Source: Candidatus Bathyarchaeota archaeon
GTDB taxonomy: Archaea > Thermoproteota > Bathyarchaeia > Bathyarchaeales > SOJC01
NCBI GenBank assembly: GCA_023131225.1
Contig: JAGLZW010000036.1
Span: forward strand, 1 to 64,000
DNA: 64,000 nt
Reading direction: 5' to 3'
Below, piece by piece: positions 1,482-25,986 of this stretch. Positions within the stretch are counted from its first letter, which is position 1. Each line of letters starts with the position of its first letter. The notes beneath the pieces were generated by a model, which was given only the letters and a program-made list of their open reading frames with translations, searched no databases and was not told where the DNA came from. Position numbers and translations under genes: made by a program.

Positions 1482-4400
1482 TTACCAGCTTTCCCCGTAG
1501 TTTCCAGCTGCAGCCACGATGTCAAAAATGTCTATATCACCATCACCATCTATGTCGTAGTTTGGATTGTACCCAGGGTCACTTACCTTAGATCCGTAGG
1601 CACCAGCCATCGCCACAATGTCGAAAATATCCACGTCGCGATCGCCGTCGACATCACCGGGAATCGTCACGAACACCCAAGCGTCGCCTAACTCGTTGTC
1701 AGCAACATCTATCTCCCCAAAAACTACGTCTGCTGCGGCACTTATGTTGTAGCTTCCCTTGGAAGAGCCAGTCCACTGTAATGTGAACGTGGTGACGTTA
1801 TTCCTGGCAAGCGCAACGAATTGCTTCCCGATGGTGGTTGCGTTTGCGCAGACGGTTACGTTGAAGGTTTCGATCCACATTCCCTCGTTTCCAACCTTAA
1901 CGGTGAGATTGATTGCATAACCCTCGGGCACTACAAACTTCGGGTAGTGAAGGCTGATGACTGCTACGTCATGGATTGGCAGAGGAGACAAGGCGACTTG
2001 CATTGTCGTCTCCGCTTGACTGTAAACTGAGGCGTTTTCTTCTGAGGTCACGTAGTTTGCCTTCTCCACGGTGATAGTGTAGTTTCCCGGGAGAATCTCG
2101 GCGAAGGACACAATCCCATTTGACGTGACGCCGCGCCTAACATAGGGACCAATGACATAGATGTTGTCGACACGGACCGCTGTGGTTCTTCTTTCTCCCC
2201 AACCTTCTGCATAGTCCGCCGATGCTTGGAGGTGAAACATGACTTCGTTTGGCAAAGTTTCTCCATACTTGTCAAAGTAGTCCGCGGCTACGTTTCGCTC
2301 GAAATGCACCTCGTCTCCTGGGTTAACAGTGTAGTTCATGCCGCCGAAATCTCCAGTCGTTGAGAACCCATAGGACACCCATCTGGATGTGTTTGCAGCA
2401 TTGTAGACGATGATTATGAAGTAGGAATGGCCGACGCCGCCGCTTCCCTGAATGTCGTCGAATTTCAATGTTGCGCCAAGAGTGGGGGCCCCGTCTCTGT
2501 TGAAGGTTCGATTCACTGCGGCATCAACCCTCCAGGGGGAAGCCCAAGCATCGGAGTCTGCGTAGAACCTTGCACTGTAAGATTCTGAAAGCGCGCTGGC
2601 GTCGGAGACTATGCTGCTATTCCAAGTTCCTGGGGGAAGGCTTCCGCTTTGTGCACTGTTAGATGAATAGTAGAAACTCCACCCACTGAAGCTTCCGTTT
2701 TCGAAGTTTTCTCGAAAAGCTTGTTTAGACGTGACGGTTATGGCTGCGGCGTTTACCGGCTCGTCTGTTATTTCGTCGGTTATGTTAATCTCCAACATTC
2801 CAGTGATGGTCGCGAGGTTGATCGAAACGTTTGTGGTTGAGGCTGGGTTTACGACGATTGGCTGGGATGTGTTTTCGTAGCCAAACTTGCTTGCGTTGAG
2901 TGTGTAGTTGCCTTGGTACAGAAACGGAATGGTGAAGGTTCCATTCTCGTTGCTTTGTGTTGCAACGAATGGTGTACTCGTGTTGCCGCTTACGTTGATT
3001 TCCACTCCGCCTAACGGGTTTCCGGATGACTCGTCGACAACCAAGCCTGATACTGACCCTGACCACATTCGATCTGCATGGTCAATCACGTCCCGTTGCA
3101 AGTCCATGATTTCCAGAACTTCAAGCTGCGTGTAGTTGCCGGCGGATTTCACGTCGCCAATGGTCACGTTCAACGCAGTGACGCTAGTTTCATACTTGGT
3201 CAGCAGAACGTCGGGAACAAGCCCGACAAGTTCTTCGTCAACCAAGAGTTCCGCTTGAACTATCGAGTCCATTGCATCCACGAATGTTGCAGGCTCCGTG
3301 TATGCCGTCTCATTCATGGCTGCCGCTGCGGCCAAATCCGAAACTAGGAAGCCATTCGAAGTTCCGTAAGTGAAGCCCAGAGATCGAAAGCTAGAGTTCG
3401 TGAAGGCCAATATCCACCGCCTTCCAACGCTCGAGTCAACTATCTCCGCGGTCGTAAAGGCGACGTTATTCTCCTCCGAAACTTCTGGAACCAACTGAAG
3501 GCCATCCACCTGAACAATGAAGGCCAACGTTTTGTTTTCCATGCTTGGAGGAATCGGATAGAAGAAGAGAAGGAGTTGGCTGCTTCGTGCTAGTAGGGCA
3601 CTTACCGGTTCTGTGCCTATGAGGATGGAACTCGCAATTAGAATGGAAACATTGCCATATGCAGGCACCGTCGGCATACCCTCATAAAGCCACAGGCTTA
3701 CAGAAGTTGGCGGGGAGACAACACCACCGTCATTGGACACTGTTACGAGAATTTCCGCTTCCAATGATTGATAGAGACCAAGGTACCCTGGGAGAAATCC
3801 TGGTCCGCTCCCTCTAAACCACTCCCCAACGACGTTCAAGTCGGGCAGCCGCGATGCAACGGCCACCATGGCCTTGACGGATAGTGGAGTTCCAACCACG
3901 TTAATGTACCATGGAGACAGGTCGGGGAAGATCAGTGAGAACTCGAAGCTTTCATATTCATTCTCAGCTTCGAATGTTGCAGGCAGCGAGAGTGTGGTTG
4001 ATACGTTTCCATTGGCAAAGTCTGCCTGAGTAACGGGTATGGTTTTCGCCAACGTCCCATTCTCAAAATGAACCTCCATTGTCGTGTCTGGAATGGTATA
4101 GCCCGGAGGCGGGTTAACAACCACGTGCCTTACGGGAAGCGTGGCCTCAAATGTGAATCCTGGGGTGGCAGAGATTGGCGGTGAAGGCCCAACATCGAAA
4201 ATGGGCAGGCCGTAACCTCCCACTCCAGGGCCCCCTCCAGGAATGAATAATCGTGACATCTGGTAGTCCGTGTCGTCTGAATCGTCCGCGTTAACTGGAA
4301 TGTTGTCCCCTGCACTGCTAATAGGGGTCCAGAGAGGAAGTGTCCACCACCACGACACGCCCAGTATGGAGAACCCTATCATCGGTGCAATTTCGACGAC

Positions 4401-5180
4401 ATAGTCGACTTCGTAGTTAAGATTGTATGCCCCGAAGTCAACGTAGCCGTCTTGGGAAGTGTAAATGTCGGTGTCTTTGATGTTGAACTGTGGACTGTAT
4501 GCGTTGCCGAGCACAATTCCATGGCTTCCGACATCGTTAGCCGTGGCATAGGGATCGTTTTCATAATAGTCTCCCCAAATCTCGTACCCATAGATTCTGT
4601 AGCGCGCTTCAATCCCTATTTGAACGTCAAGGATTTCCCTTATTCCGATGGAAGCCTTGAACGTCTCAGCTGAAGTTAACACTGATTCTCCTTGAAGGGG
4701 AGGAGTGAAGTCTCCCTCAAAGTTGAAACCCGTGTCAAAATCCCCAACTCCAACCTTCCCTGTGACGCATTCCGGTCCATAAGGGTCGTATGTCACTGAA
4801 AGGTTGAACCCGAACACATACTCGAATTCCAAACCTTCCCCGTTGTACGGTTCCGCGGCCATCTCAACCTCGTTCGTAGTGAAAGGCTCGATGCAAGTAT
4901 CATAGCGCGCCTTGATCTTGGTGGGCAACCGAATGTAACATCGACCTAGACTTAAATACACAGTTCCGGAAAGCTTTCCTCGATAGCCGCCCAAATCTTT
5001 ACTGAAACTCTTCTTCCATGTGGGATTGTCTAGGTACACCTTCTCAAAGACAACATTGTCCTCAAATTCCTCCACATTTTCGACGAAGCCTCCACCTTCC
5101 GCAGGTTTAACAAGCACAAGGGAACCAGACAAGAAACTTGCCAAAAGCACACCTATGAGAACTAGACTCTTCGCCCCCAT
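1482..5180 (-). CDS. Giant secreted dockerin protein (CARDB / carboxypeptidase-regulatory-like domains)
   Basis: A 1232-residue protein. Residues 1-30 are a signal peptide. The first half is an unrecognised extracellular region with a CARDB-like segment (LNVVGEW to about 600). Around residue 707 a carboxypeptidase-regulatory-like beta sandwich begins (SGLVVDESSGNPLGGVEI). A second such domain starts near 800 and is interrupted at about 823-1010 by an inserted LamG/CBM-like beta-jelly-roll region (ENFENGSFSGWSFYYSS), then resumes with GIVSFAEILPGNYTITVEK. A CARDB domain follows (about 1067-1170). The last 60 residues are two dockerin repeats with the calcium-loop patterns GDVDGDRDVDIFDIV and YDIDGDGDIDIFDIV, ending NYGESW. 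Many N-x-S/T sequons fit an exported archaeal glycoprotein. A cohesin partner is expected from the family but none is seen in the window. Confidence 0.9.
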   Translation of the reverse strand: MGAKSLVLIGVLLASFLSGSLVLVKPAEGGGFVENVEEFEDNVVFEKVYLDNPTWKKSFSKDLGGYRGKLSGTVYLSLGRCYIRLPTKIKARYDTCIEPFTTNEVEMAAEPYNGEGLEFEYVFGFNLSVTYDPYGPECVTGKVGVGDFDTGFNFEGDFTPPLQGESVLTSAETFKASIGIREILDVQIGIEARYRIYGYEIWGDYYENDPYATANDVGSHGIVLGNAYSPQFNIKDTDIYTSQDGYVDFGAYNLNYEVDYVVEIAPMIGFSILGVSWWWTLPLWTPISSAGDNIPVNADDSDDTDYQMSRLFIPGGGPGVGGYGLPIFDVGPSPPISATPGFTFEATLPVRHVVVNPPPGYTIPDTTMEVHFENGTLAKTIPVTQADFANGNVSTTLSLPATFEAENEYESFEFSLIFPDLSPWYINVVGTPLSVKAMVAVASRLPDLNVVGEWFRGSGPGFLPGYLGLYQSLEAEILVTVSNDGGVVSPPTSVSLWLYEGMPTVPAYGNVSILIASSILIGTEPVSALLARSSQLLLFFYPIPPSMENKTLAFIVQVDGLQLVPEVSEENNVAFTTAEIVDSSVGRRWILAFTNSSFRSLGFTYGTSNGFLVSDLAAAAAMNETAYTEPATFVDAMDSIVQAELLVDEELVGLVPDVLLTKYETSVTALNVTIGDVKSAGNYTQLEVLEIMDLQRDVIDHADRMWSGSVSGLVVDESSGNPLGGVEINVSGNTSTPFVATQSNENGTFTIPFLYQGNYTLNASKFGYENTSQPIVVNPASTTNVSINLATITGMLEINITDEITDEPVNAAAITVTSKQAFRENFENGSFSGWSFYYSSNSAQSGSLPPGTWNSSIVSDASALSESYSARFYADSDAWASPWRVDAAVNRTFNRDGAPTLGATLKFDDIQGSGGVGHSYFIIIVYNAANTSRWVSYGFSTTGDFGGMNYTVNPGDEVHFERNVAADYFDKYGETLPNEVMFHLQASADYAEGWGERRTTAVRVDNIYVIGPYVRRGVTSNGIVSFAEILPGNYTITVEKANYVTSEENASVYSQAETTMQVALSPLPIHDVAVISLHYPKFVVPEGYAINLTVKVGNEGMWIETFNVTVCANATTIGKQFVALARNNVTTFTLQWTGSSKGSYNISAAADVVFGEIDVADNELGDAWVFVTIPGDVDGDRDVDIFDIVAMAGAYGSKVSDPGYNPNYDIDGDGDIDIFDIVAAAGNYGESW

Positions 5181-5522: not shown

Positions 5523-8500
5523 CTACCAGCTTTCACCATAGTGTCCTACTGCGGCTACTATGTCGTAGATGTCTACGTCTCCATCACCGTCCAAGTCGCA
5601 GTTGGCGTCGTATTCCGGGTCGCTCTCGCTTGAGCCATAGGCACCAGCCATTGCCACGATGTCGAAAATATCAATGTCCCCATCACCATCTACATCTCCA
5701 CGGGCATGCCAATCGCAAAATGAAGCTTCGACTTCAGAGGTGTTTGCGCTGAATGTTCGGTTGACTCCCAGCTCAATGAGGCCAGTGAAGCTTTCTTCCA
5801 CTGTTGTGGTTTCATTTATCGCGTAAATCATGTTGAATGTGTAGTTGCCATTCCCTGTTCCTGCTAGCTTTGATCTGAAGCTCTCTCCAAAGACGTTAGG
5901 AACCAAAACCCACTCTGGTTCACTGTCAGGACCCGAATAGTATGCTCCAGGAATCTCCACGTCAATGCCACCAGTTCCGTTCACTCCAACATGTTTCCCT
6001 TGGGGATCATAAACGTGGATGTCAACAGGACTAAACGCTATAAAAAGCAGGTCACTAGGAAGAAGGGTTATCCTGAAGGTAGTGACAGCTGCCGCTCCAT
6101 AAATCGAATCTTTCACCCTAGCCATCCAAGGCTTGGGCACAATCCAAGTTTCGGGCATCATCCACTCTGTTGTCAACTGGGAAGTGAATAATCCTTCAGA
6201 ACTGGTTTGGGTCGAGATCTCCAGATCGTCTACCCAATAGCCAAAAGGGTTTCTAATCTGGATGACTATAGCACTTGAAACTAGGGGACTCCCAGAGCCT
6301 TTCCACTCGAAGTCACCTGAGAAAGTGATGTGAGGACTGATCATCCAGTAGCTTTCTTTGTCCGTAGCCATGTTGGCTGATATTTTCCATGAAGGTATAG
6401 CTGGCTGCTGGCAGACTTGCTGGCATATCTCATCGAGTCCTCCTTGGGGTCCAAGGTCATCTTTAATGCTTATGTAGTGGAAGAGGGCAAAACCATCCGC
6501 TTTGTTGACTCGTCCAGAATCAACAGCTTGTGCAACCTCATCCACAGTCACCCCATGTATCAGCTCTCCATTTTCGTCTGTATAGTTGAAGGCTTGAATT
6601 ACTGGAACAACATAAGGACTATAGACAAGACTTCTGAAGTATGTTGTTCTTTCCCCCACAAACGACGGAGGTTCTGGGTCAACCTCAGGAGGGGTAGTTG
6701 CATGATAAGTCATTGGCATAATAACGTCAACATGTCTTGAAATATTAACATAATCTTGTGCAACACCAGATTTAGTATCACCAATGTTCCAAGAATATAC
6801 ATCTGCAGATAGAATATGTTGTGGGAATGCTGTTCTTATGTCAGAAACGAAGTCAACAATTATTTGTTGAACAATCTTTTTGTATACATCATCAGCGTTT
6901 TCATCTGTTCTTATGTAATCGAGGTTGATGCCTGCCACGTTGTAGTTATCAAGAATCTCCGATAGAATGCTAAAGAAATAGCTTTGCACTGCCGGGCTTT
7001 CAGGTTGCACAAACTCTACTACAGTCTTTCCTTCTCCAGCCAGTTGTATTGGCAAATTAAGTCCTTCTGTAACTATCCCTAAATAGTCCGCAAAAACTGG
7101 AATCCAAGCATGGACTTCCAATTGCTTTTCATCAGCCTTTCCCAAAAGATACTCCATTGGATCAAAAGGCAACAATTCTTGAAAAGGTCCATACACCAAA
7201 TCGGGATACAACAAGCTAGGATACATGAGTATCCCACTTGCATAGCCTGGGTCTTCGTATCCTATGCCTTGGCTTTCAAGGTTGGGGTCAAATGAAGTTC
7301 TATCATCCTTGAATCCAACGAAAATTGTATTCATGTTATTGTCGCTAAGGTTTCCAACAAGCCAATCTATCGCTTGTTTAGCTGCTGGTTCAGAAACGCT
7401 TGTTTGCCCTGTTTCTGATATGCCAAATAACTGACTTAGTCTTACGAAAACTCCTCTTGGCTCTCCAATCTCCGGAACAGTTGAATGCGCACGCACGCGC
7501 ACCAGCCAAGCACCCGCAGGTGTGAAAGTATCAGTATATCCTATCACTGCTGCTCCACCATCATATGTGCTACACAAATCGTTAGTGTAATCATTTCCTG
7601 CGCCACCTACGACTTCATCTGATATGATGTACCCCTCATCATCTGTTTTTATCAACCAAATATCCTGATCTTCCCCTGGGACCGCTGTCGAGGCAGCTAT
7701 GAAGTATCCACCACTGTCCGTTTGGAAGACTGCGCTGCCAGAATCATATGAGCTTCTCGCGAATGTCTGTTCCCAGAGTTGGATTCCTGAAGAATCGAGT
7801 TTGAGCAGCCAAACATCCTTACTTCCTGGGTTTGTGCCTGTGACAATGAAGCCATCGTCAGATGTTCGCTTGATGCATGCTGCATAGGCGAAATCCTGAT
7901 AAGGAAGCCCATAACTGCGTGCCCACAAGATACCATACGTCTTGCTGAGACACACTACCCGAGTGCCCAAAAATTGCGCTTCTCCTGCAACTACGAAGTT
8001 GCCATCTGAGGTCTCTTCAACAGAATAGGCAATATCCCTCATGCTTCCAGCGTCATAGGTCATATGGCCTCCAGAGCCCGTGATCTTGATGAAATAATCG
8101 AACATTTTGTTAGTGTAGTCCTCATAGGTTTGTTGAGTGCCCACTATCACTTCATGTCCATCAGAGGTTGCTATCACGCAGTAAGCTGTATCATCATATA
8201 GCCCTCCCCGGGTCTCCGCGGACACCCTGTAGCCCTGGGAATTGGTCGTAACAATATAGACATCACGTTGCTCATTGTATGGCGGGCGAGAGTAGGCATG
8301 CTTGGTGGTATATCCCGCCAAGACGTAGCCGCCATCCGCCTTCACCGCCACTGAATAGGCAACATCATTTCTATGTTCACCGCCATCATAAGTCCTGCTC
8401 CATTGAAGATTCCCTTGCGCGTCAACTTTGACCAACCACATGTCAAGTCCATTACCCTGTACATGAGCGTGACCAGCCATTACATAGCCTCCGTCTGACG

Positions 8501-8792
8501 TCTGCTTCACAGAGTTGAGCGTATTCCCGTAGGTCCTGTTCCATTCCACGCTCGACAGCAGTGTAGAGGCTATTGCTGAGTGTGAGGCTCCAGCAATCCT
8601 CGTGTTATGGGATCCAATCGAGAAGGGGGAGAAACATGAGCTTGAAATTGGAGCAGTTGGCGGATCGATGCTCCCATCAGTCCTAATATATATGGTTCCA
8701 GATCCTTCAACGGTCTGAATATTTAATGCTAGAGTCAACATGCTTGTTAAAAGCAGTGTCACTATTATTCCTGAAGCAATTCTTCTCAACAT
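5523..8792 (-). CDS. Giant secreted protein: seven-repeat beta-propeller, TIM-barrel glycosidase-like domain, C-terminal dockerin pair
   Basis: A 1089-residue protein. The signal peptide (1-30) is followed by SGTIYIRTDGSIDPPTA, shared with the protein at 1-622. Residues 80-435 carry seven units of the type TSDGGYVMAG, consistent with a seven-bladed propeller. Residues 440-790 resemble the GHL10/DUF187 family of putative TIM-barrel glycosyl hydrolases: RGVFVRLSQ, LEVHAWIPVF, VAGINLDYIR, ILSADVYSW and MPMTYH are spaced as barrel strands, with acidic candidates in GINLDYIR and SADVY. Beta-sandwich regions follow. Residues 1030-1089 are two dockerin repeats (GDVDGDGDIDIFDIV, CDLDGDGDVDIYDIV), ending HYGESW. 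It is likely surface or secreted and may bind or cleave polysaccharide; activity is inferred only from the fold pattern. Confidence 0.88.
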   Translation of the reverse strand: MLRRIASGIIVTLLLTSMLTLALNIQTVEGSGTIYIRTDGSIDPPTAPISSSCFSPFSIGSHNTRIAGASHSAIASTLLSSVEWNRTYGNTLNSVKQTSDGGYVMAGHAHVQGNGLDMWLVKVDAQGNLQWSRTYDGGEHRNDVAYSVAVKADGGYVLAGYTTKHAYSRPPYNEQRDVYIVTTNSQGYRVSAETRGGLYDDTAYCVIATSDGHEVIVGTQQTYEDYTNKMFDYFIKITGSGGHMTYDAGSMRDIAYSVEETSDGNFVVAGEAQFLGTRVVCLSKTYGILWARSYGLPYQDFAYAACIKRTSDDGFIVTGTNPGSKDVWLLKLDSSGIQLWEQTFARSSYDSGSAVFQTDSGGYFIAASTAVPGEDQDIWLIKTDDEGYIISDEVVGGAGNDYTNDLCSTYDGGAAVIGYTDTFTPAGAWLVRVRAHSTVPEIGEPRGVFVRLSQLFGISETGQTSVSEPAAKQAIDWLVGNLSDNNMNTIFVGFKDDRTSFDPNLESQGIGYEDPGYASGILMYPSLLYPDLVYGPFQELLPFDPMEYLLGKADEKQLEVHAWIPVFADYLGIVTEGLNLPIQLAGEGKTVVEFVQPESPAVQSYFFSILSEILDNYNVAGINLDYIRTDENADDVYKKIVQQIIVDFVSDIRTAFPQHILSADVYSWNIGDTKSGVAQDYVNISRHVDVIMPMTYHATTPPEVDPEPPSFVGERTTYFRSLVYSPYVVPVIQAFNYTDENGELIHGVTVDEVAQAVDSGRVNKADGFALFHYISIKDDLGPQGGLDEICQQVCQQPAIPSWKISANMATDKESYWMISPHITFSGDFEWKGSGSPLVSSAIVIQIRNPFGYWVDDLEISTQTSSEGLFTSQLTTEWMMPETWIVPKPWMARVKDSIYGAAAVTTFRITLLPSDLLFIAFSPVDIHVYDPQGKHVGVNGTGGIDVEIPGAYYSGPDSEPEWVLVPNVFGESFRSKLAGTGNGNYTFNMIYAINETTTVEESFTGLIELGVNRTFSANTSEVEASFCDWHARGDVDGDGDIDIFDIVAMAGAYGSSESDPEYDANCDLDGDGDVDIYDIVAAVGHYGESW

Positions 8793-8824
8793 TCTCTCCC
8801 TAAAGCAAAATATACCTTAGACAG

Positions 8825-8855
8825 TATTATCGTTTTTGGAAGAAAGTTCTATTTC
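8825..8855 (-). promoter_or_regulatory. Conserved upstream element of the dockerin/propeller gene (copy 2)
   Basis: Begins 33 bases upstream of the ATG at 8792 and matches 659-689 at 30 of 31 bases. Both copies sit between a hairpin repeat and a surface-protein start, so the whole upstream block appears duplicated. On the minus strand CAAAAACGATAATA is a plausible promoter core. Confidence 0.5.
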
Positions 8856-8862
8856 AGCTAAG

Positions 8863-8928
8863 AAAAAATGGGGGTTTTGCGGGAGACATCTCCCTTGTGG
8901 GGAGGGTTCTAATCTAACCCCCGCACCA
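8863..8928 (+). repeat. Dispersed hairpin repeat, copy C (tRNA-like)
   Basis: Starts AAAAAATGGGGGTTTTGCGGGAG, contains the perfect GGGAGA-CA-TCTCCC inverted repeat, and ends GGGTTCTAATCTAACC then CCCGCACCA. GCGGGAG and CCCCCGC can pair as an acceptor-like stem (6 of 7) followed by ACCA. The interior is only about 32 nt and lacks an anticodon arm. It lies between the divergent 8792 and 8996 genes. Confidence 0.6.
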
Positions 8929-8995
8929 AGGTCGCAAAACTATTTAGATGTCTGTCAAGCTATTTGCTCGACGTATATTTGGGAGCTGAGATGAG

Positions 8996-9430
8996 ATGCG
9001 GTTCAGAGTTGCGATGGTTTTGTTGGAAGGGGGGAGGATTTTGGTTGCTAATCATTTTGATGGAAGTGAGTCCTACTGGGTGTTGCCGGGAGGTGCCTTA
9101 GAGAACGGGGAAACATTGGAGGAATGTGCCATTCGTGAGGTGAAGGAAGAAACTGGTTTGAAAACCAAAGTCAAGAAACTCCTATTTGTTGATGAAGGAC
9201 TTTCTGAAGATAGGCATGTGGTGGTGACCAACATCACATTTTTGGGCGAAATAATCGGTGGAAAACTAAATCCCAAGCCTGAAGGATACTTTAGAGAAGC
9301 ACGGTTTATTGACGTTAATCAACTGGATGAGATCAACTTCTATCCGAGAATCACCGCGAAGCTGCTTAAAGAGGCGTACTCAAATAACTTCAAGATAGAA
9401 ACAAAATACTTCTTTCACAAATACAAGTGA
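8996..9430 (+). CDS. Nudix hydrolase
   Basis: A 144-residue protein with a complete Nudix box starting at GGALENGE (about residues 32-54): G-x5-E-x7-R-E-V-x-E-E-T-G-L, which binds the divalent metal for pyrophosphate hydrolysis. The WVLPGG motif immediately precedes it. The length fits a single-domain MutT-type enzyme that hydrolyses nucleoside diphosphate derivatives; the substrate cannot be read from the sequence. The ATG at 8996 is preceded by GGGAGCTGAG; another ATG at 8991 is out of frame. It is a single gene, transcribed away from the dockerin gene. Hairpin copy D lies just downstream. Confidence 0.9.
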   Translation: MRFRVAMVLLEGGRILVANHFDGSESYWVLPGGALENGETLEECAIREVKEETGLKTKVKKLLFVDEGLSEDRHVVVTNITFLGEIIGGKLNPKPEGYFREARFIDVNQLDEINFYPRITAKLLKEAYSNNFKIETKYFFHKYK

Positions 9431-9485
9431 GCTACTTCTTATCTGTCTTTTTCGCAGATGTGTTCATAGCCTCTACTTATTTTAG

Positions 9486-9532
9486 AAAAATGGGGAGTTG
9501 CGGGAGATGTCTCCAGCCTAGCTGGAAACCGC
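9486..9532 (+). repeat. Dispersed hairpin repeat, copy D
   Basis: AAAAATGGGGAGTTGCGGGAG is followed by two adjacent hairpins, GGAGA-TG-TCTCC and CCAGC-CTA-GCTGG, closed by GCGG (9500-9503) pairing with CCGC (9529-9532). The three-stem layout with a changed second hairpin suggests structure is retained. It lies between the Nudix and thioredoxin genes. Confidence 0.55.
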
Positions 9533-9666
9533 TATTTTCACTCGGTTTTCCTCGTTTTGGTTAGGTATGCAGTTACCTATTTGCCTTTCCTCAAGTAGAG
9601 CGATTTCGTCTTCGTCACGAAAATGACTCAAGTCTCCGAGTTGAGAGAGAATTTGGGTAATTCGGA

Positions 9667-10059
9667 ATGTTCAAGGGCATAGTAGAGACAAACGCATCGA
9701 ACTGGAAAGAGGAGGTTCTAGACTCAAACGATTTAATTATTGTTGAGTTTTGGCATCCACAATGTCCCTACTGCAAGATGGTTAAGCCGGTTTATGTTGA
9801 ACTTCCAAAGGAGCTTGTAGGCAAGCTGAAATTCGCGAAATTCGATGTCATGAAGAACCTAGAGAGCCAAGAGCTTGCTGCCAAATATGGTATAATGGGT
9901 ACACCTACTTTGAAGTTCTTCTGTCAAGGAAAACCTGTTCAAGACATTGTAGGTGTACTGACGAAGGATTATCTGCGCCAAGGAATAGAATTCGCGATCA
10001 AAAAACACCGCGAATGTGCAGAGAAGAGCACGCCTTTAAATCTGCCCTACATAAGCTGA
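9667..10059 (+). CDS. Thioredoxin-family protein
   Basis: A 130-residue thioredoxin fold. The active site reads FWHPQCPYCKMVKP at about residues 29-42, giving a CPYC redox pair, and the cis-proline loop is GTPTLKFF. The rest follows the family (FDVMKNLESQELAAKYGIMGTPT). The C-terminal extension ends with another Cys (RECAEKS). It is likely a cytosolic disulfide reductase; the CPYC motif is more typical of glutaredoxins than of classical CGPC thioredoxins, so its redox potential may differ. There is no obvious operon partner; the next gene on this strand starts 400 bases away. Confidence 0.9.
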   Translation: MFKGIVETNASNWKEEVLDSNDLIIVEFWHPQCPYCKMVKPVYVELPKELVGKLKFAKFDVMKNLESQELAAKYGIMGTPTLKFFCQGKPVQDIVGVLTKDYLRQGIEFAIKKHRECAEKSTPLNLPYIS

Positions 10060-10159
10060 TTCAAGAACTGTTGAAAGAACCTGCAGTTTGCGAAGGCATG
10101 ACCACAATGAATAGAAATGGCTATCTCCACTCAGCTTTTTTCGGTATGTTTCAGTGTTG

Positions 10160-10339
10160 TTACTCTGAAGCGAGAACTAATCGTTCCGAACCCACATCAA
10201 CTTCAACAATCTTACAGTTTTCTATTGTCTTAGTAATACCTAAGACGTCTTTTAGCAGCACCTTGTTTCCCTCATGCTTAACGTAGACTGCGTCTCTGTA
10301 AACGATTTCTTTATTCAGAAACACTGTGAATTCGCACAT
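10160..10339 (-). CDS. CooT-type small nickel-binding protein
   Basis: A 59-residue protein that starts MCEFTVFLNKE and ends VEVDVGSERLVLASE. It matches the CooT / COG1532 family: a tiny beta-barrel dimer in which Cys2, next to the initiator Met, ligands Ni2+, with central ENCKIVEVDV near the end. In bacteria CooT assists nickel delivery to CO dehydrogenase; in archaea many stand-alone members exist without a tested function. Its position directly upstream of, and divergent from, a corrinoid-protein gene suggests a link to C1/CODH metabolism, which is inference. It is too short for usual gene-length cut-offs. Confidence 0.8.
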   Translation of the reverse strand: MCEFTVFLNKEIVYRDAVYVKHEGNKVLLKDVLGITKTIENCKIVEVDVGSERLVLASE

Positions 10340-10467
10340 GTTCTAAACCGTTCATGGTAGAATGAGAAAACTAATATAAGTCTTGTCGCTACGTGCAACG
10401 ACTAGAAGTTGAAAAGACTAATAATCCTAAGTAGTTATGCAGACTTCATGCTTGGTGAGGTTAAAGA

Positions 10468-11130
10468 TTGAGTAAGAAGGTCCTGGAAGAACTGAAAGAC
10501 GCTGTTGTTGTTGGTAACATGAAAAAGGCAAAAGAAATTGCCAAACAGATAACAAACCAAGGAATCTCAGTCAATACGGCCTTAGACACACTAATGAAAG
10601 CCATGAAAACTGTTGACGAACGTTACGAAAGAAGGGAATACTTCGTTATTGACGTTGCGTCTTCTGCCTCAGCGATGCGGGAAGCTTTCAAAGTTCTTGA
10701 GCCATATTTAGAGGTTGAACCCGCCACAGTGAAAGGGAAAATCGTTATTGGCTCGTTGAAAGGAAACATTCAAGGCTTAGGAAAAGACATCGTAGCCGCG
10801 ACACTTCAATCAGCAGGTTTCCAAGTTATCAATTTAGGCGAAGATGTCGCTCCTAAGGACTTCGTAAAGGCTGTAGTTCGTGAAGAAGCACAGATTATAG
10901 CAATTTCTATCTCTATGGAAGAAACAATCCCATACCTAAAAGTAGTAGTGGACATTTTGAAAAAAGAAAACCTACGAGATAAAATAAAAGTGATAATAGG
11001 AGGCAACACGGTTTCCGAACAGACATGCAGAGAGTATGAGCTTGATGCTTACGCAGTTGACGCGCAAGACTGCTTGAAAAAAGTCAGGGCTTTACTCACT
11101 AAAAGATTTTGTAAAGCGGATGGTTCTTGA
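10468..11130 (+). CDS. Corrinoid (B12-binding) methyltransferase protein, MtbC/MtmC-like, lacking the Co-ligand His
   Basis: A 220-residue protein with the two-domain plan of methyltransferase corrinoid proteins: a helical cap (1-88) and a Rossmann-like B12 domain (90-215). The family motif at the start of the B12 domain is normally GDxHxxG, where His is the lower axial cobalt ligand. Here residues 99-105 read G-N-I-Q-G-L-G, so Asp is Asn and His is Gln. Later landmarks are also altered: SISMEET where SALLTT is usual, and GGNT for GGAP. It may bind cobalamin without a protein His ligand, or have lost cobalamin. TTG start with GGTGAGG eight bases upstream. Its 3' end overlaps the opposing MtrH-like gene by 32 bases. 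Confidence 0.85.
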   Translation: MSKKVLEELKDAVVVGNMKKAKEIAKQITNQGISVNTALDTLMKAMKTVDERYERREYFVIDVASSASAMREAFKVLEPYLEVEPATVKGKIVIGSLKGNIQGLGKDIVAATLQSAGFQVINLGEDVAPKDFVKAVVREEAQIIAISISMEETIPYLKVVVDILKKENLRDKIKVIIGGNTVSEQTCREYELDAYAVDAQDCLKKVRALLTKRFCKADGS

Positions 11131-12025
11131 CCAGCGGTTTGGTTCCGAAACGTTTCATAGCATAGTAAGCAATTATTGCGTCGTTCACAGCACACGCAGG
11201 AATCATGTTCTTGGCTTGTTTTATTGGTCCATAGATGAGGAAGTCTGCGCCCCAACACTGAGCAATTGTGTGCGCAGATGCGTTAGATGCCGCAAAGCCC
11301 TCTTTTAAAACTGAACCTTTCAAAGCCTGTTTCCAAGAGTATGTTGCGTTTGCGGGTGAACAACCAGCAGGATATCCTAGTTGTTTCTTCACAAGTTTGA
11401 TAGCCTCTGCAGCGTAAGAGATACTAGGCACATCGAAAACTATTGTATCTATAAGGATTTTTTCCACCTTTGCTTTTTTCGCCATGCCAAGCAGTCCGAC
11501 ATATTCTGTCGAACCTTCCAGTATGCTGATTCTGCCCTCGGGAGAGTAATCGAATTCGTTGAATGCCATCACTACTGCCGCATTGACGCCAGTGTCTTTG
11601 ATGGCTACTAATTCGTTTTGTGAGGTTTTAGGCGTAATTCCGTTGAATATCACGTATTTCTCAAGGCCAAGGTGTTTAACAGTATCTAAAGCCGCTATTC
11701 TCGTCTCTGGATTAGCACCGTCAATTAGAAAAGGAGTATTTGTTTGCTCCGAAACGAATGCAATGTATCTCCTTATCGCTTCTGGATACATTGCCATAAT
11801 GTCTAGAAAGTGGGGCACCCCGCTTTTCTCAGAAATTGTCTCAGCAAGTCTGATCCATTTTAAAACTGCTTTTTTGTCAAAACTGCCGTCTCTGTGGTTA
11901 GAAACTTCTGGCATGCCTTTATAGAAGATGTTGCCGATTAGAACGGTAGGCAATTCTCCAGGCTGTCCACCGATTCTGAAGTTGTTGATTCGGTAGATTT
12001 TCTGTTTTGTTTCTAGCGTGAACAG
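11099..12025 (-). CDS. MtrH-family tetrahydromethanopterin methyltransferase-like protein
   Basis: About 308 residues. MtrH landmarks are present: IGGQPGELPTVLIGNIFYKG near the N-terminus, NHRDGSFDK, and the TIM-barrel strands FLIDGANPETR, YVIFNGITP and ILIDTIVFDVPS. In methanogens MtrH moves methyl groups between tetrahydromethanopterin and a corrinoid. Stand-alone MtrH proteins pair with corrinoid proteins in methylotrophic systems. Family N-termini begin about 24 residues before the first conventional start (TTG at 11953). The matching position is a CTG at 12025 preceded by GGGTGA, so I place the start there; the TTG is the conservative alternative. It converges on the corrinoid-protein gene and overlaps it, which may matter for regulation. 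Confidence 0.85.
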   Translation of the reverse strand: MFTLETKQKIYRINNFRIGGQPGELPTVLIGNIFYKGMPEVSNHRDGSFDKKAVLKWIRLAETISEKSGVPHFLDIMAMYPEAIRRYIAFVSEQTNTPFLIDGANPETRIAALDTVKHLGLEKYVIFNGITPKTSQNELVAIKDTGVNAAVVMAFNEFDYSPEGRISILEGSTEYVGLLGMAKKAKVEKILIDTIVFDVPSISYAAEAIKLVKKQLGYPAGCSPANATYSWKQALKGSVLKEGFAASNASAHTIAQCWGADFLIYGPIKQAKNMIPACAVNDAIIAYYAMKRFGTKPLVKNHPLYKIF

Positions 12026-12406
12026 TTTTGTTTCACCCTATCACTGTACAGCTGTGCTTTCAGCATTAATTATAGTGCATTCACATTTTAAATCTCGCTT
12101 GCGCGCACAAGCGAAGGCATTCACAAATCTACACAAATAACTGTCCTTCACACTCGTCAGCTAAGGCCTTCTCAAACTCGATGCATGCATGCAGCGGCTT
12201 CGACTGAATATGCATTGTTATTCAATGGCCTTCATCCACAAAGTAGTATCCCCAATAGGGTGTTACCCAAATATAGATAGCCCCAACCGTATTGATCGGC
12301 TTTGCATGCTAAGGCTATTACTCTGCCTGTGCTATCCTTCTAGTTTTCAGAGCTTCTTGCTTAAATGTGCTGGTTGAGCGTGACTCATTCGTCAATCATT
12401 AACATA
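12026..12406. other. Intergenic region with one hairpin
   Basis: The only clear structure is TCGCTTG (12095-12101) and CAAGCGA (12108-12114) around a six-base loop, upstream of the MtrH-like gene on its strand. No convincing coding sequence was seen. Confidence 0.5.
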
Positions 12407-12691
12407 TTACACGGGTTTGAATGTTGATTCTTTTGGCTTTGCTTTAAGCTTAGCTGGCACGTCAATTGTTCTTACGATATTCTGGCTTCGAATCAGGTAT
12501 ATTGGCATTCCATCAGGGTTGCACTTCTTAAGTCGTTTCACGCCATTCAAGACTAGCTTGACCTTCAGAGTTGTCCCATCAGAAAGCTTGTATGTGTTCC
12601 AATATTCTTGCTCATCTGTGAAATCAACTTCAGTTCCTTCAGCTAAATCCCTTTGAGTTATCCTTATTCCAGGTGGTTGACCTCTACTCAA
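12407..12691 (-). CDS. Conserved-looking small hypothetical protein
   Basis: A 94-residue protein with no domain I recognise. It reads like a compact beta-rich archaeal protein: WNTYKLSDGTTLKVKLVLNG, then DGMPIYLIRSQNIVRTIDVP, with a basic tail KLKAKPKESTFKPV. Composition and absence of low-complexity sequence support a real gene, and the opposite-strand frame looks like a shadow. No neighbour shares its strand closely. Confidence 0.6.
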   Translation of the reverse strand: MSRGQPPGIRITQRDLAEGTEVDFTDEQEYWNTYKLSDGTTLKVKLVLNGVKRLKKCNPDGMPIYLIRSQNIVRTIDVPAKLKAKPKESTFKPV

Positions 12692-13077
12692 TTATATTCA
12701 CACAACCTAAATTAAGTTCAATGCCATTAAACGCAGTTTAAACCTATAAATGTTTTTGAAATATAGCAAACCTACTTCAATAACATGAACAACCAAAGCA
12801 AATGGAATTCTTAGTCTGAAAAATGGGAGGTAAGGAGCTCTCCACCTTAACTGAAGATACGATTCTTGAAATACTATTCTCCACACCCAGCATGCTAGTA
12901 AAGCGTGCATGCATAGTCCTTCAATAGCAAGCACGATAATAAAACTTATATTCAACGTAATCTTCCTTCAACACCACTAGCTTACCAGAACAACACCATG
13001 TAACAGGTAAGTCGCAACACTCCTTGCGTGGTTTCCATTTTGGTGGCTAGCACCGCATTAAGGGACGAACCGTACAG
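12692..13077. other. Intergenic region with a diverged hairpin-repeat copy
   Basis: GAAAAATGGGAGGTAAGGAG at 12818-12837 followed by CTCTCC resembles the AAAAATGGGGAGTTGCGGGAG family, with GGAGA-like pairing. An 82-residue minus-strand frame (12707-12955) is hydrophobic but has no ribosome site or family pattern, and I do not call it. Confidence 0.35.
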
Positions 13078-13212
13078 ATGTCGAGATGGTTTACAGAAAA
13101 AGCGAGAATACAAGGAAAACAGCTACTAAGATTTGGTGAAAAAAGCCAGCAACATCAGATGGCTTTTGAGCAGGAAATCCTGTTAAAGAGGAAAAGGAAC
13201 TCGAAGTTATGA
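13078..13212 (+). CDS. Small basic hypothetical ORF
   Basis: A 44-residue frame, MSRWFTEKARIQGKQLLRFG then a Lys/Arg-rich end. It overlaps the next small ORF (13209) at TATGA and could be part of a coupled series leading to the OB-fold gene. I do not recognise it. Length and composition alone give weak support. Confidence 0.25.
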   Translation: MSRWFTEKARIQGKQLLRFGEKSQQHQMAFEQEILLKRKRNSKL

Positions 13213-13376
13213 TTAGCGGCATTGGAAGTCACGAAGACGAAACAGCAAGAATGCAAGGATTTCAATTTTTTGTGCTTAAATCCAAGACCAGAGAAAGATT
13301 AATGGTCAAAATAGCCAAGGCCAACAGAGAATTCGCCCTAGCGGAAAAAATAAATGATACGGGAGGAGAAAAATGA
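13209..13376 (+). CDS. Small hypothetical protein, translationally coupled to the OB-fold gene
   Basis: A 55-residue charged protein (MISGIGSHEDETARMQGFQF ... FALAEKINDTGGEK). Its TGA overlaps the ATG of the OB-fold gene (ATGA at 13373-13376), and the ribosome site GGGAGGAG of that gene lies inside its last codons. This is the usual layout of a real archaeal operon. The frame stays open upstream to 13170 (AGNPVKEEKELEV), so the start could be earlier or the pair 13078/13209 could be one frameshifted gene. The function is unknown. Confidence 0.5.
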   Translation: MISGIGSHEDETARMQGFQFFVLKSKTRERLMVKIAKANREFALAEKINDTGGEK

Positions 13377-13663
13377 AAATAAAGGATTTAACAAATGGAT
13401 TGAAGCGAGTAGACGTGGAAGCAAAAGTCCTTGAAAAAACCGCAACGCGCGAAGTCATGTCTAGATACAAAAACGAAACATTACGCGTAGCAACGGTGAT
13501 TATAAGCGACGACACTGGACAAATAAAACTAACATTATGGAACGACCAAATCGAAGAAGTCAACGAAAACGACACAGTTAAAATCGAAAATGGCTACGTA
13601 ACCTCGTTCCGCGGAGAAATCCAACTCAACGTCGGTAAATATGGACAATTAACGGTGATGTAA
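13373..13663 (+). CDS. Single OB-fold nucleic-acid-binding protein (SSB/RPA-like)
   Basis: A 96-residue protein matching the single-OB-fold archaeal SSB/RPA group: VEAKVLEKTATREV, then VATVIISDDTGQIKLTLWND, then NDTVKIENGYVTSFRGEIQLNVGKYG. The DDTGQIKLTLWND strand is diagnostic for this family, which coats single-stranded DNA or binds RNA. It lacks the acidic C-terminal tail of crenarchaeal SSB, so it may be an accessory OB protein rather than the main SSB. It is coupled to the preceding small ORF and followed 53 bases later by the TRAM protein gene, probably in one transcript. Confidence 0.85.
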   Translation: MKIKDLTNGLKRVDVEAKVLEKTATREVMSRYKNETLRVATVIISDDTGQIKLTLWNDQIEEVNENDTVKIENGYVTSFRGEIQLNVGKYGQLTVM

Positions 13664-13716
13664 CTTCGAAACCTTGTGCCAAAATGTCTATTAATGAATT
13701 GAAAAGAGGTGAAAGA

Positions 13717-22536: not shown

Positions 22537-25500
22537 CTATTGCTCAGTTTTCTTCGGCGGGGGTTTCTTTTTCTTTTTTATGGCAAAGATGACGACAATC
22601 GCAACGATAGCTACAATGACGCAAGTTATCGAAGCTAGGAACCAGATTTGAGTCCAGAATGGTGATGGTTGTCCAAAGAGAGCCCATATGCTGAAGTGGT
22701 TGACAACAGCCCACACATAATGCTCGTCTGTGTTTATGTGACTTTCAACTGGAATCCACTTGCCTTCCGTGGCGTTCCAATAATGGATCTGCAATGAGCT
22801 TTCGTCCAGCCCTAATTCGGACAGTTGCTCAAGCGTATAGTATATGCGTATGGTGGCATTTACAGCGACGTCTGTTTCGTTGGCAATGATTTCTACATAG
22901 TTACTTAAAGCCTTGAGCGTACCTGGTGGGGGTTCCACATTTTCCGGTAAGGTTGTTACATTTCTTATGGCTATTTCGACAGGCTTGTCGATCTCGGTGA
23001 TTATGAGTTTAGACGAAGTTTTATTCATGGCATCAATTATGAATGGGTTTGTAGCGTTAACAGTCTCTGGATTAGTAATGGTCCCAGTTGTTTGAGAGCC
23101 CTCTATTGATAGATTTATGGTATAGACTCCGCTGTAACTGACGATTAGGGATTTTGTTGTCGAGACCTCCAGGTAAGTAGCCGTGATGTTGTATTCTCCG
23201 TAGGGCATGTATGCATAGTCTACAGCAAAAGTCGTTGTATATCCGAAGTCGTCGGTTGTTAGCGACATATAGAGTGTTCCGTTTGGCCAATACACTTCCA
23301 CAGTTACATTTTGTACGGGGTCGCCCACTTGATCAACTACAAGTACTCTTGCAGTGTATGTTTGCGGTTCAATTTTGAATATTAAATCTTTGATGTTGCT
23401 GATTGATTCGTTATACCAAATCATGTAGCTGTTGTTAGGACCTGTTTCATTAGGCGTCGGTACGCTTCCAGTGCTGATTAAAGTGACAGCATGGGTAACA
23501 TTGTTTCCTCCCTCAACTATCAGTTTAAGCTGTTCTCCTGAACTTGGGAATGGATAATCAGCTGTGAGGTTGAAGAAGCGTTCAAGTTTGAATTGAGTGG
23601 GGTCGGAATCAACGGGGTCTATTGGCGGCGTTAGAGTTAAGTCGTCAAAATCGACTGTAAGAGACGTGTTGCCATAGTTGAAGTTCATCTGGAGTTTGTT
23701 GATGTCGATCGTTGTTTGGTTGAGGAATACTAGCTGCCAAGGTAGCGACTCTACTCCAGTCATTATTTTAAGGAGATTCATCATGACTTGTTTTATGTGG
23801 TTGATTTCAGCGGTGAGATCTCCCTCGATCACATATGTTGATTCGAAATGCACTATGCCGTTTTGGTAAGACATCGACTCATTGTAGGATTCCATTGAGC
23901 AATATGTCGTGTTTAGTAGCAACTCTACGAAAGGTTTGATCTCTAGGGGTGCCACGTCCGGCAATAGAGCAGCGATCTCATCCCAATACTCTGACAAGTT
24001 TGAGGTAGCAGTTAGGTTTACCTGAAATTCCTTGTTTGTACTCGAGTATTCGAGCTTGACTGAAGCGTCTTTTAGCATTGAAAACGTATGATTTAACAAT
24101 TGTAAGGGGATCTCTGGAGGGATGGACATTGGTGGAATATACATAGATGGAATCGGCGGGTATAACATGAGGTTTCCGATATAAGGTATACATGTTACAA
24201 CCTTTCCTATCAAACTCGTATGTGGAACCAGCCAAGGATCTGGACTTGGGTTGTTGTCTCCTTTCGTCTTGAAATACCACTCGCCTGTAGTAGTGTTGAA
24301 GAATTTGTCTACTGCTCTATGTACAACTATGACGTTCGGATCTGACGGTTTGTAGAATGCGATGATGTCACCAGTTTCATTGTTAGCTACGATTTGACTT
24401 GGGTCTGCAATGCTTTCAACTCGTACTATGTCGCCAACCAGCAGAGTGGGGTCCATAGACATACCAGCTACTGCAAAGTATCTGGCCTCTGGCGCAGCAA
24501 GGTATTCTACTAATGATCTTAGATCATAGGCGAATGTTAACGATAAAGAAACTTGTTTTGAACTGACTGTGTATGCCACTTGGAAAGAGAGGGTATCAAC
24601 GGAGGACAGAGTTGCGTTTAACAACGGACATAGCATCATGTTTTGGGCAGGTCCTGACATAATGAACGCCAATGCCTTGATAAAGTTGCCATGTACGGTC
24701 GCGTTGAATGTTACATCTGCGCTGGTGGTTCCATAGGTTGGGGTTGTGGTGAACTGAGTGCATTCAAACAAGCCCATTGTCATATTGTATAAGGAGTGTG
24801 GACCTGTTTCTGGAAGGGTGCTGTTTATTTCTAGAAGCCATTCGTCTAGCGTTGTCTTGTTGAGGGGGAATTGTGGGAAAGGCAGAGGTAACTCAAAGGA
24901 CATGACATCATAAATGAAAGTGATATCACTCATCAGGTTTAGGTCGGTTTGGTTTCCCTGAAACTCTATGTTTATGTCGCCTAATGGAAACCCTGATACC
25001 ATGTGAAACGTGATCGTTCCTTGAGCTACATTGTTAGAGTATTCTCCGACTGCGGAAATGTCGGTAATGTTGAACGGAAACGTTGAAGCAATGTAGGAAG
25101 GCAACGCTGTCAGGAAATCTAGTTGAAGGTTGAAAATTCCATCGGAATACGTCCCGGTTATTGCAACATCTGTAGTGTTGAAGGGATACTCTGCAGCAAT
25201 TCCGGCGGGCAGAGTCATCGTAGCATTAAGTTCGCTTTGAACATTCCCTTCAGAATATGTTTCAAGGATAGAGACTATAGTTGAGTTGAAGGGAAATTCG
25301 GACGCTTCTTTCGGCGGAATTTCCATAATGTAGTCTGCTGATGCCACTACTAAGCCGCCGTCTTTGGTGATTCCTATTACTCCTTGCATTGTGGGACCAG
25401 TGTTCGGACTGTTGACTTCTGACACAACCATGTCAGAGTAATCTAACGCTCCTGCTAACGTTACGGTGCCATTTGGATAGACGATGAACCTTGCTTCTAC

Positions 25501-25986
25501 GTCCTTAAAGGGAGCGTCAAACTCGGTATATGAGTATTCTCTTGAAAGCGGTACATTATATATGGTGTGAGGAATGTATGGATAATCTACTGTGGTGTCC
25601 AACCTTATCTCAGAAATGTTCAACGGGTTAATGCTTGAAGCGTAGATTGTGGGTCCGTAGAGACTAACGTTAACAACATTTATGCCCGTTTCGAAATAGG
25701 CAGATTCCGAGCGGCCCTCGATAAATAATTGCTGATAGCTCTCACTTATTAGGTTGTACACTTTGACATCATACCAACCCGGATCGCTAACATTAAACTC
25801 CACTCCTATTTGCAAAAGGTCGAATTTCCCATCGCCGTCCTTGTCCACTCCCTCATCATAAACATTGCCAGTAAGGCTGGCTCTTGGGCTCTCAGCGCCT
25901 GCAAAGGGTATCCGCATCAACGACAATGACAGAATCGTAAGAAGAAACGTGACAGTGAGCACATTCCGTATGGATATTCTTATCAT
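22537..25986 (-). CDS. Giant membrane-anchored ectodomain protein with an internal signal-peptidase-I (S26) domain
   Basis: 1149 residues. Signal peptide 1-31; C-terminal transmembrane helix (about 1108-1132) and a Lys/Pro-rich cytosolic tail (KKKKKPPPKKTEQ). Residues 228-335 are three tandem ~35-residue units built on EFPFNSTIV / EYPFNTTDV / TFPFNITDI. Residues 503-605 are a signal peptidase I domain: VAGMSMDPTLLVGDIVRVES with Ser510, VIVVHRAVD with His556 and YFKTKGDNN with Asp577, the Ser/His/Asp set of archaeal and ER-type enzymes. A Greek-key-like domain (ARVLVVDQVGDPVQNVTVEV) lies near 890. N-x-S/T sequons are abundant. Normal signal peptidases are about 150-200 residues, so this is a fusion. 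It may process exported or surface proteins. It is divergent from a MacB-type transporter with a shared palindromic promoter region. Confidence 0.88.
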   Translation of the reverse strand: MIRISIRNVLTVTFLLTILSLSLMRIPFAGAESPRASLTGNVYDEGVDKDGDGKFDLLQIGVEFNVSDPGWYDVKVYNLISESYQQLFIEGRSESAYFETGINVVNVSLYGPTIYASSINPLNISEIRLDTTVDYPYIPHTIYNVPLSREYSYTEFDAPFKDVEARFIVYPNGTVTLAGALDYSDMVVSEVNSPNTGPTMQGVIGITKDGGLVVASADYIMEIPPKEASEFPFNSTIVSILETYSEGNVQSELNATMTLPAGIAAEYPFNTTDVAITGTYSDGIFNLQLDFLTALPSYIASTFPFNITDISAVGEYSNNVAQGTITFHMVSGFPLGDINIEFQGNQTDLNLMSDITFIYDVMSFELPLPFPQFPLNKTTLDEWLLEINSTLPETGPHSLYNMTMGLFECTQFTTTPTYGTTSADVTFNATVHGNFIKALAFIMSGPAQNMMLCPLLNATLSSVDTLSFQVAYTVSSKQVSLSLTFAYDLRSLVEYLAAPEARYFAVAGMSMDPTLLVGDIVRVESIADPSQIVANNETGDIIAFYKPSDPNVIVVHRAVDKFFNTTTGEWYFKTKGDNNPSPDPWLVPHTSLIGKVVTCIPYIGNLMLYPPIPSMYIPPMSIPPEIPLQLLNHTFSMLKDASVKLEYSSTNKEFQVNLTATSNLSEYWDEIAALLPDVAPLEIKPFVELLLNTTYCSMESYNESMSYQNGIVHFESTYVIEGDLTAEINHIKQVMMNLLKIMTGVESLPWQLVFLNQTTIDINKLQMNFNYGNTSLTVDFDDLTLTPPIDPVDSDPTQFKLERFFNLTADYPFPSSGEQLKLIVEGGNNVTHAVTLISTGSVPTPNETGPNNSYMIWYNESISNIKDLIFKIEPQTYTARVLVVDQVGDPVQNVTVEVYWPNGTLYMSLTTDDFGYTTTFAVDYAYMPYGEYNITATYLEVSTTKSLIVSYSGVYTINLSIEGSQTTGTITNPETVNATNPFIIDAMNKTSSKLIITEIDKPVEIAIRNVTTLPENVEPPPGTLKALSNYVEIIANETDVAVNATIRIYYTLEQLSELGLDESSLQIHYWNATEGKWIPVESHINTDEHYVWAVVNHFSIWALFGQPSPFWTQIWFLASITCVIVAIVAIVVIFAIKKKKKPPPKKTEQ

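Follow-up and report, generated by a model that had tools for sequence, protein, structure and literature searches.

The gene at 10,468-11,130 (forward strand) of the window, which is the whole 64,000-nucleotide stretch of Bathyarchaeia DNA analysed here, raises the question of what a protein with cobalamin-binding domains can do when the histidine normally found beneath the cobalt is missing. The gene encodes 220 amino acid residues from a TTG start codon. An in-frame TAA lies just 5' of the start, and the sequence GGTGAGG at 10,454-10,460 of the same strand, 7 nt 5' of the TTG, is likely to be the ribosome-binding site. According to Pfam, the helical cap (B12-binding_2, PF02607) covers residues 5-78 (1.9e-13, 50.8 bits against a cut-off of 23) and the Rossmann domain (B12-binding, PF02310) residues 90-191 (1.3e-19, 70.7 bits against 32.1), which by the curated cut-offs makes this a two-domain cobalamin-binding protein. 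Besides these, the protein shows only DUF3347, below its cut-off, and the Pfam scan detects no DNA-binding or signalling domain. No Rfam match at gathering score is found within 8700-13,700, nor any terminator-like site in 11,050-11,200. A search of its genome finds no second protein of this sort; the match after it, at E ≤ 1, is part of a B12 domain encoded on a different contig (31% identity over residues 103-185).

The loop and its conservation

The translation gives G99-N100-I101-Q102-G103-L104-G105 (codons 10,762-10,782, forward strand) in place of GDxHxxG, exactly as an earlier note on this DNA had claimed. Among 256 genomes of the class, 23 contain a match (E ≤ 1e-45), with 24 genes in all, and these genomes fall within a single order, where they represent four families. 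Of 398 genomes drawn evenly from the phylum, six match at E ≤ 1e-42, all among the same 23, and no relative outside the order is found at that threshold; the three nearest records in a scan of public genomes are named Bathyarchaeota. The loop reads N-x-Q in 21 of the 24 genes, N-x-H in two (genomes G015 and G021) and C-x-Q in one (G028). Residues were counted in 21 full-length members, leaving out the fragments L022 and L068 and the degenerate L023, and compared with 23 ordinary relatives (DxHxxG) from the same order. Position 100 is Asn in all 21 members and Asp in all 23 ordinary relatives. Position 102 is Gln in 19 and His in two of the members; it is His in all 23 ordinary relatives. The loop codons vary silently (AAC/AAT and CAA/CAG) with constant residues. 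The dN/dS ratios, calculated from the dN and dS values of the window gene paired with each of three relatives, are 0.11, 0.12 and 0.12; in two further pairs dS is saturated. In the tree, the His-less clade is split from the ordinary proteins with a support of 100/100. N-x-Q thus marks a conserved subfamily, and closest homologues that all retain His, which the earlier note had regarded as the sign of a local mutation or sequencing error, are not what is seen. Since the loop is conserved, its codons change silently, dN/dS is 0.11-0.12 and the clade is fully supported, sequence comparison makes a sequencing error or decay very unlikely as the origin of the loop in the window gene.

Three irregular cases were noted. 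The relative in G028 (L053, 6079-6726) has the decayed loop GCAQRMERD, is not preceded by mch, and no mtrH was found in its genome. In the one-contig genome of G006 the gene is in two pieces (residues 1-87 and 71-214; L051 and L052) separated by about 560 kb, the result of either a rearrangement or an assembly fault. Internal stop codons were listed for several relatives; those inspected are ordinary stops that the alignment overruns by a few residues.

Fingerprint, predicted fold and the presumed lower face of the corrin

The canonical fingerprint is spaced DXHXXG-41-42-SXL-26-28-GG (PMC4915002, in excerpt), and the His-less clade keeps this spacing (NxQxxG-41-SxS-28-GG). G99, G105, K106, S147, G178 and G179 are invariant in both the His-less and the ordinary group. 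The assertion that the fold is otherwise preserved stands overall, with an AlphaFold model and its match to MtmC, and fails at one further point of the B12 fingerprint, as the Leu of SxL (position 149) is Ser in 14, Thr in six and Ala in one of the 21 members. All 23 ordinary relatives have T151; the members instead have Glu (10), Asp (five), Lys (two), Ser (two) or some other residue (the remaining two), and this change might disturb binding of the nucleotide tail, which would count against a carrier role. No His is among the positions conserved in at least 95% of the 21 members. The AlphaFold model has a mean pLDDT of 88.1 from an alignment of five sequences only. It gives its top VIA-align score with MtmC (3ezx; Z 26.8, rmsd 2.0, 208 residues), in a list that is no proof that other families are absent, and the first hit by Foldseek is MttC from the MttB-MttC complex. 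The regulators CarH and AerR, which contain B12 domains, have the same fold. The methylamine and glycine-betaine corrinoid proteins MtmC, MtbC, MttC and MtgC (TIGR02370) resemble the protein in fold and length, but it falls below the NCBIfam cut-offs (TIGR02370, 132.5 of 215.3 bits; MtgC, 137.6 of 370; MtbC, 115.5 of 350), and has NIQGLG where the 23 ordinary relatives have DxHxxG. In CobDH, an O-demethylase corrinoid protein of solved structure, the conserved Asp, His and Ser have the numbers 100, 102 and 147 (PMC3727330, in excerpt), as the corresponding positions do here.

B12 proteins without the histidine are already known, namely CFeSP, CmuA and radical-SAM enzymes. Excerpts of PMC13331322 describe the Leu of the SxL loop in MetH as stacking on the His, whereas in OxsB, TsrM and TokK, whose Rossmann B12 domain is base-off and His-off, a residue of that same loop and not a His sits under the cobalt. 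OxsB has Asn at the position of the MetH Leu and ligates the cobalt through a water, CFeSP has an uncharged or hydrophobic residue at the lower-ligand place, and an absent lower ligand favours Co(I) (same source). OxsB, TsrM and TokK differ from the window protein in their fused radical SAM domains and different chemistry. The iron-sulphur corrinoid proteins are a recorded exception to DXHXXG (PMC4915002, in excerpt).

The closest precedent for the loop is CmuA of Methylorubrum extorquens CM4, which has the same cap and Rossmann B12 domains and is 31% identical over residues 4-213. Its loop, RGNTQDIGKN in CM4 and in a second CmuA on plasmid pJM105, contains the same GN-x-Q double replacement; nine other plasmid-borne corrinoid proteins inspected, out of 120 matching records, have D-x-H. 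The motif of CmuA may well have been remarked upon in older papers. The partner of CmuA, CmuB, belongs to PF02007 (the MtrH family), as does the product of the gene next to the window gene. Together CmuA and CmuB pass the methyl group of chloromethane to the corrinoid and on to tetrahydrofolate, with a requirement for B12 (PMC3621897, in excerpt), and so feed a C1-carrier pathway, as the archaeal context would. CmuA differs in its fused URO-D domain, in the use of tetrahydrofolate, in occurring in aerobic bacteria, and in having Asp after the Gln and SxM, neither of which the window protein matches. With the motif columns included, CmuA and the archaeal clade group together with a support of 88/61. 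When these columns are removed the free tree separates CmuA, and a tree constrained to keep them together is 6.6 log units better (p-AU 0.648). As the B12-dependent CmuA carries the same GNxQ loop, by analogy it is plausible that the archaeal protein binds a cobamide.

Four cofactor states had been proposed in the earlier note. The best supported is a cobamide without a lower protein ligand, given the retained motif and spacing of the tail pocket, the lack of a conserved His and the loop of CmuA. Base-on cobalamin fits poorly because the pocket for a base-off tail (S147, G178-G179 and the spacing) is intact, and nothing positive speaks for a different cofactor or for a role in regulation alone, though either is conceivable. 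The cobamide would be held base-off without a His beneath the cobalt; its lower face would be lined by N100, Q102 and S/T149, which probably hold a water molecule or leave the cobalt four-coordinate. The missing ligand would stabilise Co(I) and make re-reduction easier. Within the sister pairs G022/G015 and G013/G021, alignment and tree reveal a swap between Gln and His at position 102, which suggests that this side chain still faces the metal. As N100 is fixed, the proton relay through the Asp appears to have been given up in all full-length members. The swap, with N100 retained in the two His-bearing species, could also mean that Q102 itself ligates the cobalt. Amides bind Co(II) poorly, however, and the excerpted literature on cobamide ligation describes no protein in which Gln ligates the cobamide; we regard a Gln-on protein as very doubtful.

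The protein could also have lost its corrinoid and now regulate the adjacent MtrH or sense something else. Both ligand residues and T151 are changed, CarH and AerR share the fold, and the G028 loop demonstrates that decay is possible. However, few parts of the protein are as well conserved as the loop, in which Asp and His have been replaced by the amides Asn and Gln with no drift. The place in a C1-metabolism operon, the precedent of CmuA and the lack of a detected DNA-binding or signalling domain also speak against such a pseudo-carrier, which we consider quite improbable.

The MtrH-family neighbour and gene order

The MtrH-family methyltransferase gene lies on the reverse strand at 11,099-12,025, convergent with the corrinoid protein gene and overlapping its last 32 nt (11,099-11,130). 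PF02007 matches at 11,102-11,953 (3.4e-63, 214 bits against a cut-off of 22.8), and the whole-genome search places the match at 11,156-12,007. By this cut-off and by the residues conserved throughout the family, the product is an MtrH-family protein. Homology at the N-terminus reaches the CTG codon at 12,025-12,023 (reverse strand), which is preceded by GGTGA; judged by the sequence, translation seems to start there, as in L037, L038 and L042; elsewhere the corresponding start codon is ATG or TTG. In the family of the window's organism (f1), the two genes stand tail to tail in all 11 matching genomes and their 3' ends always overlap, in seven through a shared CTAA/CTAG (loci include L104, L040, L042-L044, L047 and L051). 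Over all families, 17 of the 23 genomes have an MtrH gene on the opposite strand within 3.5 kb. None was found within the stretch examined in G013, G021, G028, G051, G103 and G105; the contig of G028 ends about 60 bases past the corrinoid protein gene. The MtrH proteins linked to the variant are 56-96% identical to that of the window, whereas other MtrH proteins compared reach at most 46%. They keep D51, D78, N104, D169 and N202 (residue 1 being encoded by the TTG at 11,953). K15, conserved in at least 95% elsewhere, is Pro in 14 of the 15 variant-linked proteins, and S105 is changed to Gly or Ala. MtrH would move the methyl group between N5-methyl-tetrahydromethanopterin and the cobalt of the corrinoid protein.

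An MtrH-family partner is also found in MtgC systems (NCBIfam MtgA model). Couples of a corrinoid protein and MtrH are known in Bathyarchaeia (Bathy-6, BA1/BA2), with their role left unresolved in the excerpts of PMC7886697, and the MtgABC O-demethylase is described as having no recognised activating enzyme (PMC10989822, in excerpt). In these systems the corrinoid protein gene adjoins an MtrH-family gene in Bathyarchaeia, as it does here; the excerpts of the two papers mention no His-less member. In families f6 and f7, six short corrinoid proteins encoded next to MtrH (L069-L074), perhaps of the couple type, retain His, unlike the window protein. Their loops read EPDMHDTAK (EPDMHLTPK in one), and lack the Gly before the motif and the last Gly.

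The neighbourhoods of the 23 genomes were compared, with the genes of the G110 operon identified by Pfam. In families f2 (2/2), f4 (3/3) and f6 (6/7), 11 of 12 genomes in total, the corrinoid protein gene closes a row made up of formylmethanofuran dehydrogenase genes (fwdD, B, A, C) and mch. In G028 mch is missing from the row, the contig of G015 starts inside fwdA, and fwdD is unmatched in G103. In f6, a second, partial copy of the corrinoid protein gene holds the place at the end of the operon in G111, and in G112 neither fwd nor mch lies beside the gene. In f1, where several contigs end too soon to tell, genes for CODH/ACS are within about 8 kb in five of the 11 genomes and genes for acetyl-CoA synthetase are nearby in four. 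No methyltransferase-1 gene was seen beside the corrinoid protein gene in the neighbourhoods compared.

On the available sequences we think it rather probable that the protein is a methyl carrier with a base-off, His-off cobamide, which exchanges methyl groups with tetrahydromethanopterin through MtrH. It would link the one-carbon pathway of Fwd, Mch and tetrahydromethanopterin to a second methyl partner. The lack of a neighbouring methyltransferase-1, the lack of MttB in the 10 variant-only genomes, the two N-x-H members, the loss of the loop in G028 and the six genomes with no MtrH in the stretch examined count against the carrier reading.

Other genes near the locus were recorded. A thioredoxin gene (9667-10,059, forward strand) lies upstream on the same strand as the corrinoid protein gene, and is upstream in four of the other 10 f1 genomes (G001, G004, G010 and G006) at roughly 40 to 590 nt; thioredoxin is a possible redox partner. 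In several genomes a membrane protein resembling the substrate component of ECF transporters adjoins the corrinoid protein or mtrH gene (L005 8285-8860, L077 1037-1708, L045 5229-5825 and L050 2078-2665; PF12822 in two of the three scanned). The window also contains three very large open reading frames of 1089-1232 codons on the reverse strand (1482-5180, 5523-8792 and 22,537-25,986). By eye, two of them end in dockerin-like DxDGDxDxxD repeats and the third holds a signal-peptidase-like SMDPTL stretch.

Possible sources and destinations of the methyl group

CFeSP (CdhD/CdhE) carries methyl groups on a corrinoid in the Wood-Ljungdahl pathway, and it too has no His ligand. The window protein could be its counterpart, loaded from methyl-tetrahydromethanopterin by MtrH and delivering to acetyl-CoA synthase or to CFeSP, with the loss of His being the same adaptation. 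The operon with fwd and mch, the CODH/ACS and acetyl-CoA synthetase genes near the f1 loci, and the broken DXHXXG of the iron-sulphur corrinoid proteins (PMC4915002, in excerpt) would agree with this. The protein, however, belongs to another family (PF03599 unmatched, E 0.01) and has no Fe-S domain, and both kinds of protein occur in one genome. The window's genome encodes CdhC, CdhD and CdhE (CdhD/E on contig C29), which rules out a replacement of CFeSP there, and most of the 17 variant genomes tested likewise carry CdhD/E and CdhC. G015 (98% complete) and G022 (85%) contain the genes for the corrinoid protein, MtrH, Fwd and Mch, yet the searches turned up neither CODH nor CdhC nor CFeSP in these two genomes. 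For this reason the protein is unlikely to serve acetyl-CoA synthesis in general, and we hold the CFeSP-like role as such to be unlikely.

The methyl groups might instead be supplied by a substrate methyltransferase whose gene is unlinked, such as an O-demethylase like the MtgB of Bathyarchaeia, and be passed to tetrahydromethanopterin for methylotrophic acetogenesis or methyl oxidation. This direction has been proposed or shown for the MtrH-family proteins of MtgA/MtoA systems (PMC10989822 and PMC8630106, both in excerpt), and CmuA and CmuB run in it. It would suit G015 and G022, in which methyl oxidation through Mch and Fwd would be possible without CODH/ACS. The compared neighbourhoods without a methyltransferase-1 do not favour it, nor does the genome-wide search, which among such enzymes covered MttB alone: none of the 10 variant-only genomes, the window's genome included, has MttB at E 1e-10. 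An MttB-linked methylamine or betaine system is thereby ruled out for the window's own genome. An MtgB of about 300 residues was not recognised in the f7 loci. We treat an unlinked methyltransferase as a real possibility, although we would not expect it to prove right.

A third destination would be methionine, with MtrH, the carrier and a homocysteine enzyme forming a split methionine synthase. Such a role has been considered for the couples of corrinoid protein and MtrH (PMC7886697), and corrinoid donors have been predicted for MesA-C (PMC7857596; both in excerpt). However, the core methionine synthase domain PF01717 (E 1e-5) is absent from 16 of the 17 variant genomes, with a weak match in G013, and homocysteine S-methyltransferase (PF02574) is absent from all 61 genomes searched. 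The methionine role was rejected on these grounds, and we consider it most improbable.

The distribution of the activating enzyme RACo was compared as possible support for an easily reduced cobalt. RACo is found in one of the 10 genomes that have only the variant, compared with 18 of the 24 that have ordinary two-domain relatives, in 20 of which the ordinary motif was confirmed (Fisher p 0.0015, uncorrected for relatedness). However, it occurs in only seven of 27 genomes with neither protein and is missing from the six genomes with a His-bearing short corrinoid protein beside MtrH. For these reasons, and with relatedness uncorrected, we discount the counts. The sole variant-only match is in the window's genome beside CdhD. 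A RACo-type gene stands beside cdhD there (G000:C29:24516-28243, L087) and in several genomes of other families; the sister species G001 has CFeSP and no RACo.

Taken at its widest, the proposal is that one order of Bathyarchaeia has built a methylamine-type corrinoid protein without the His into the tetrahydromethanopterin branch (fwdDBAC-mch-gene plus mtrH), as a soluble, ligand-free carrier analogous to CFeSP, drawn from another family and working without ATP-driven reactivation; in this full form we think it unlikely. No description of a His-less member of the Bathyarchaeia corrinoid proteins was found in the open-access literature, as excerpted, and an account may exist in print elsewhere. 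The findings point to a methyl-transfer step, with no prior description found, in the one-carbon pathway of these uncultured archaea, and the GNxQ loop is not confined to CmuA. The protein is a small, stand-alone natural variant in which Asp-His under the cobalt has become Asn-Gln and, at a second site, Leu has become Ser/Thr; it would therefore allow tests, with no mutation of MetH, of what the lower ligand does in methyl transfer and in the reduction of Co(II) to Co(I).
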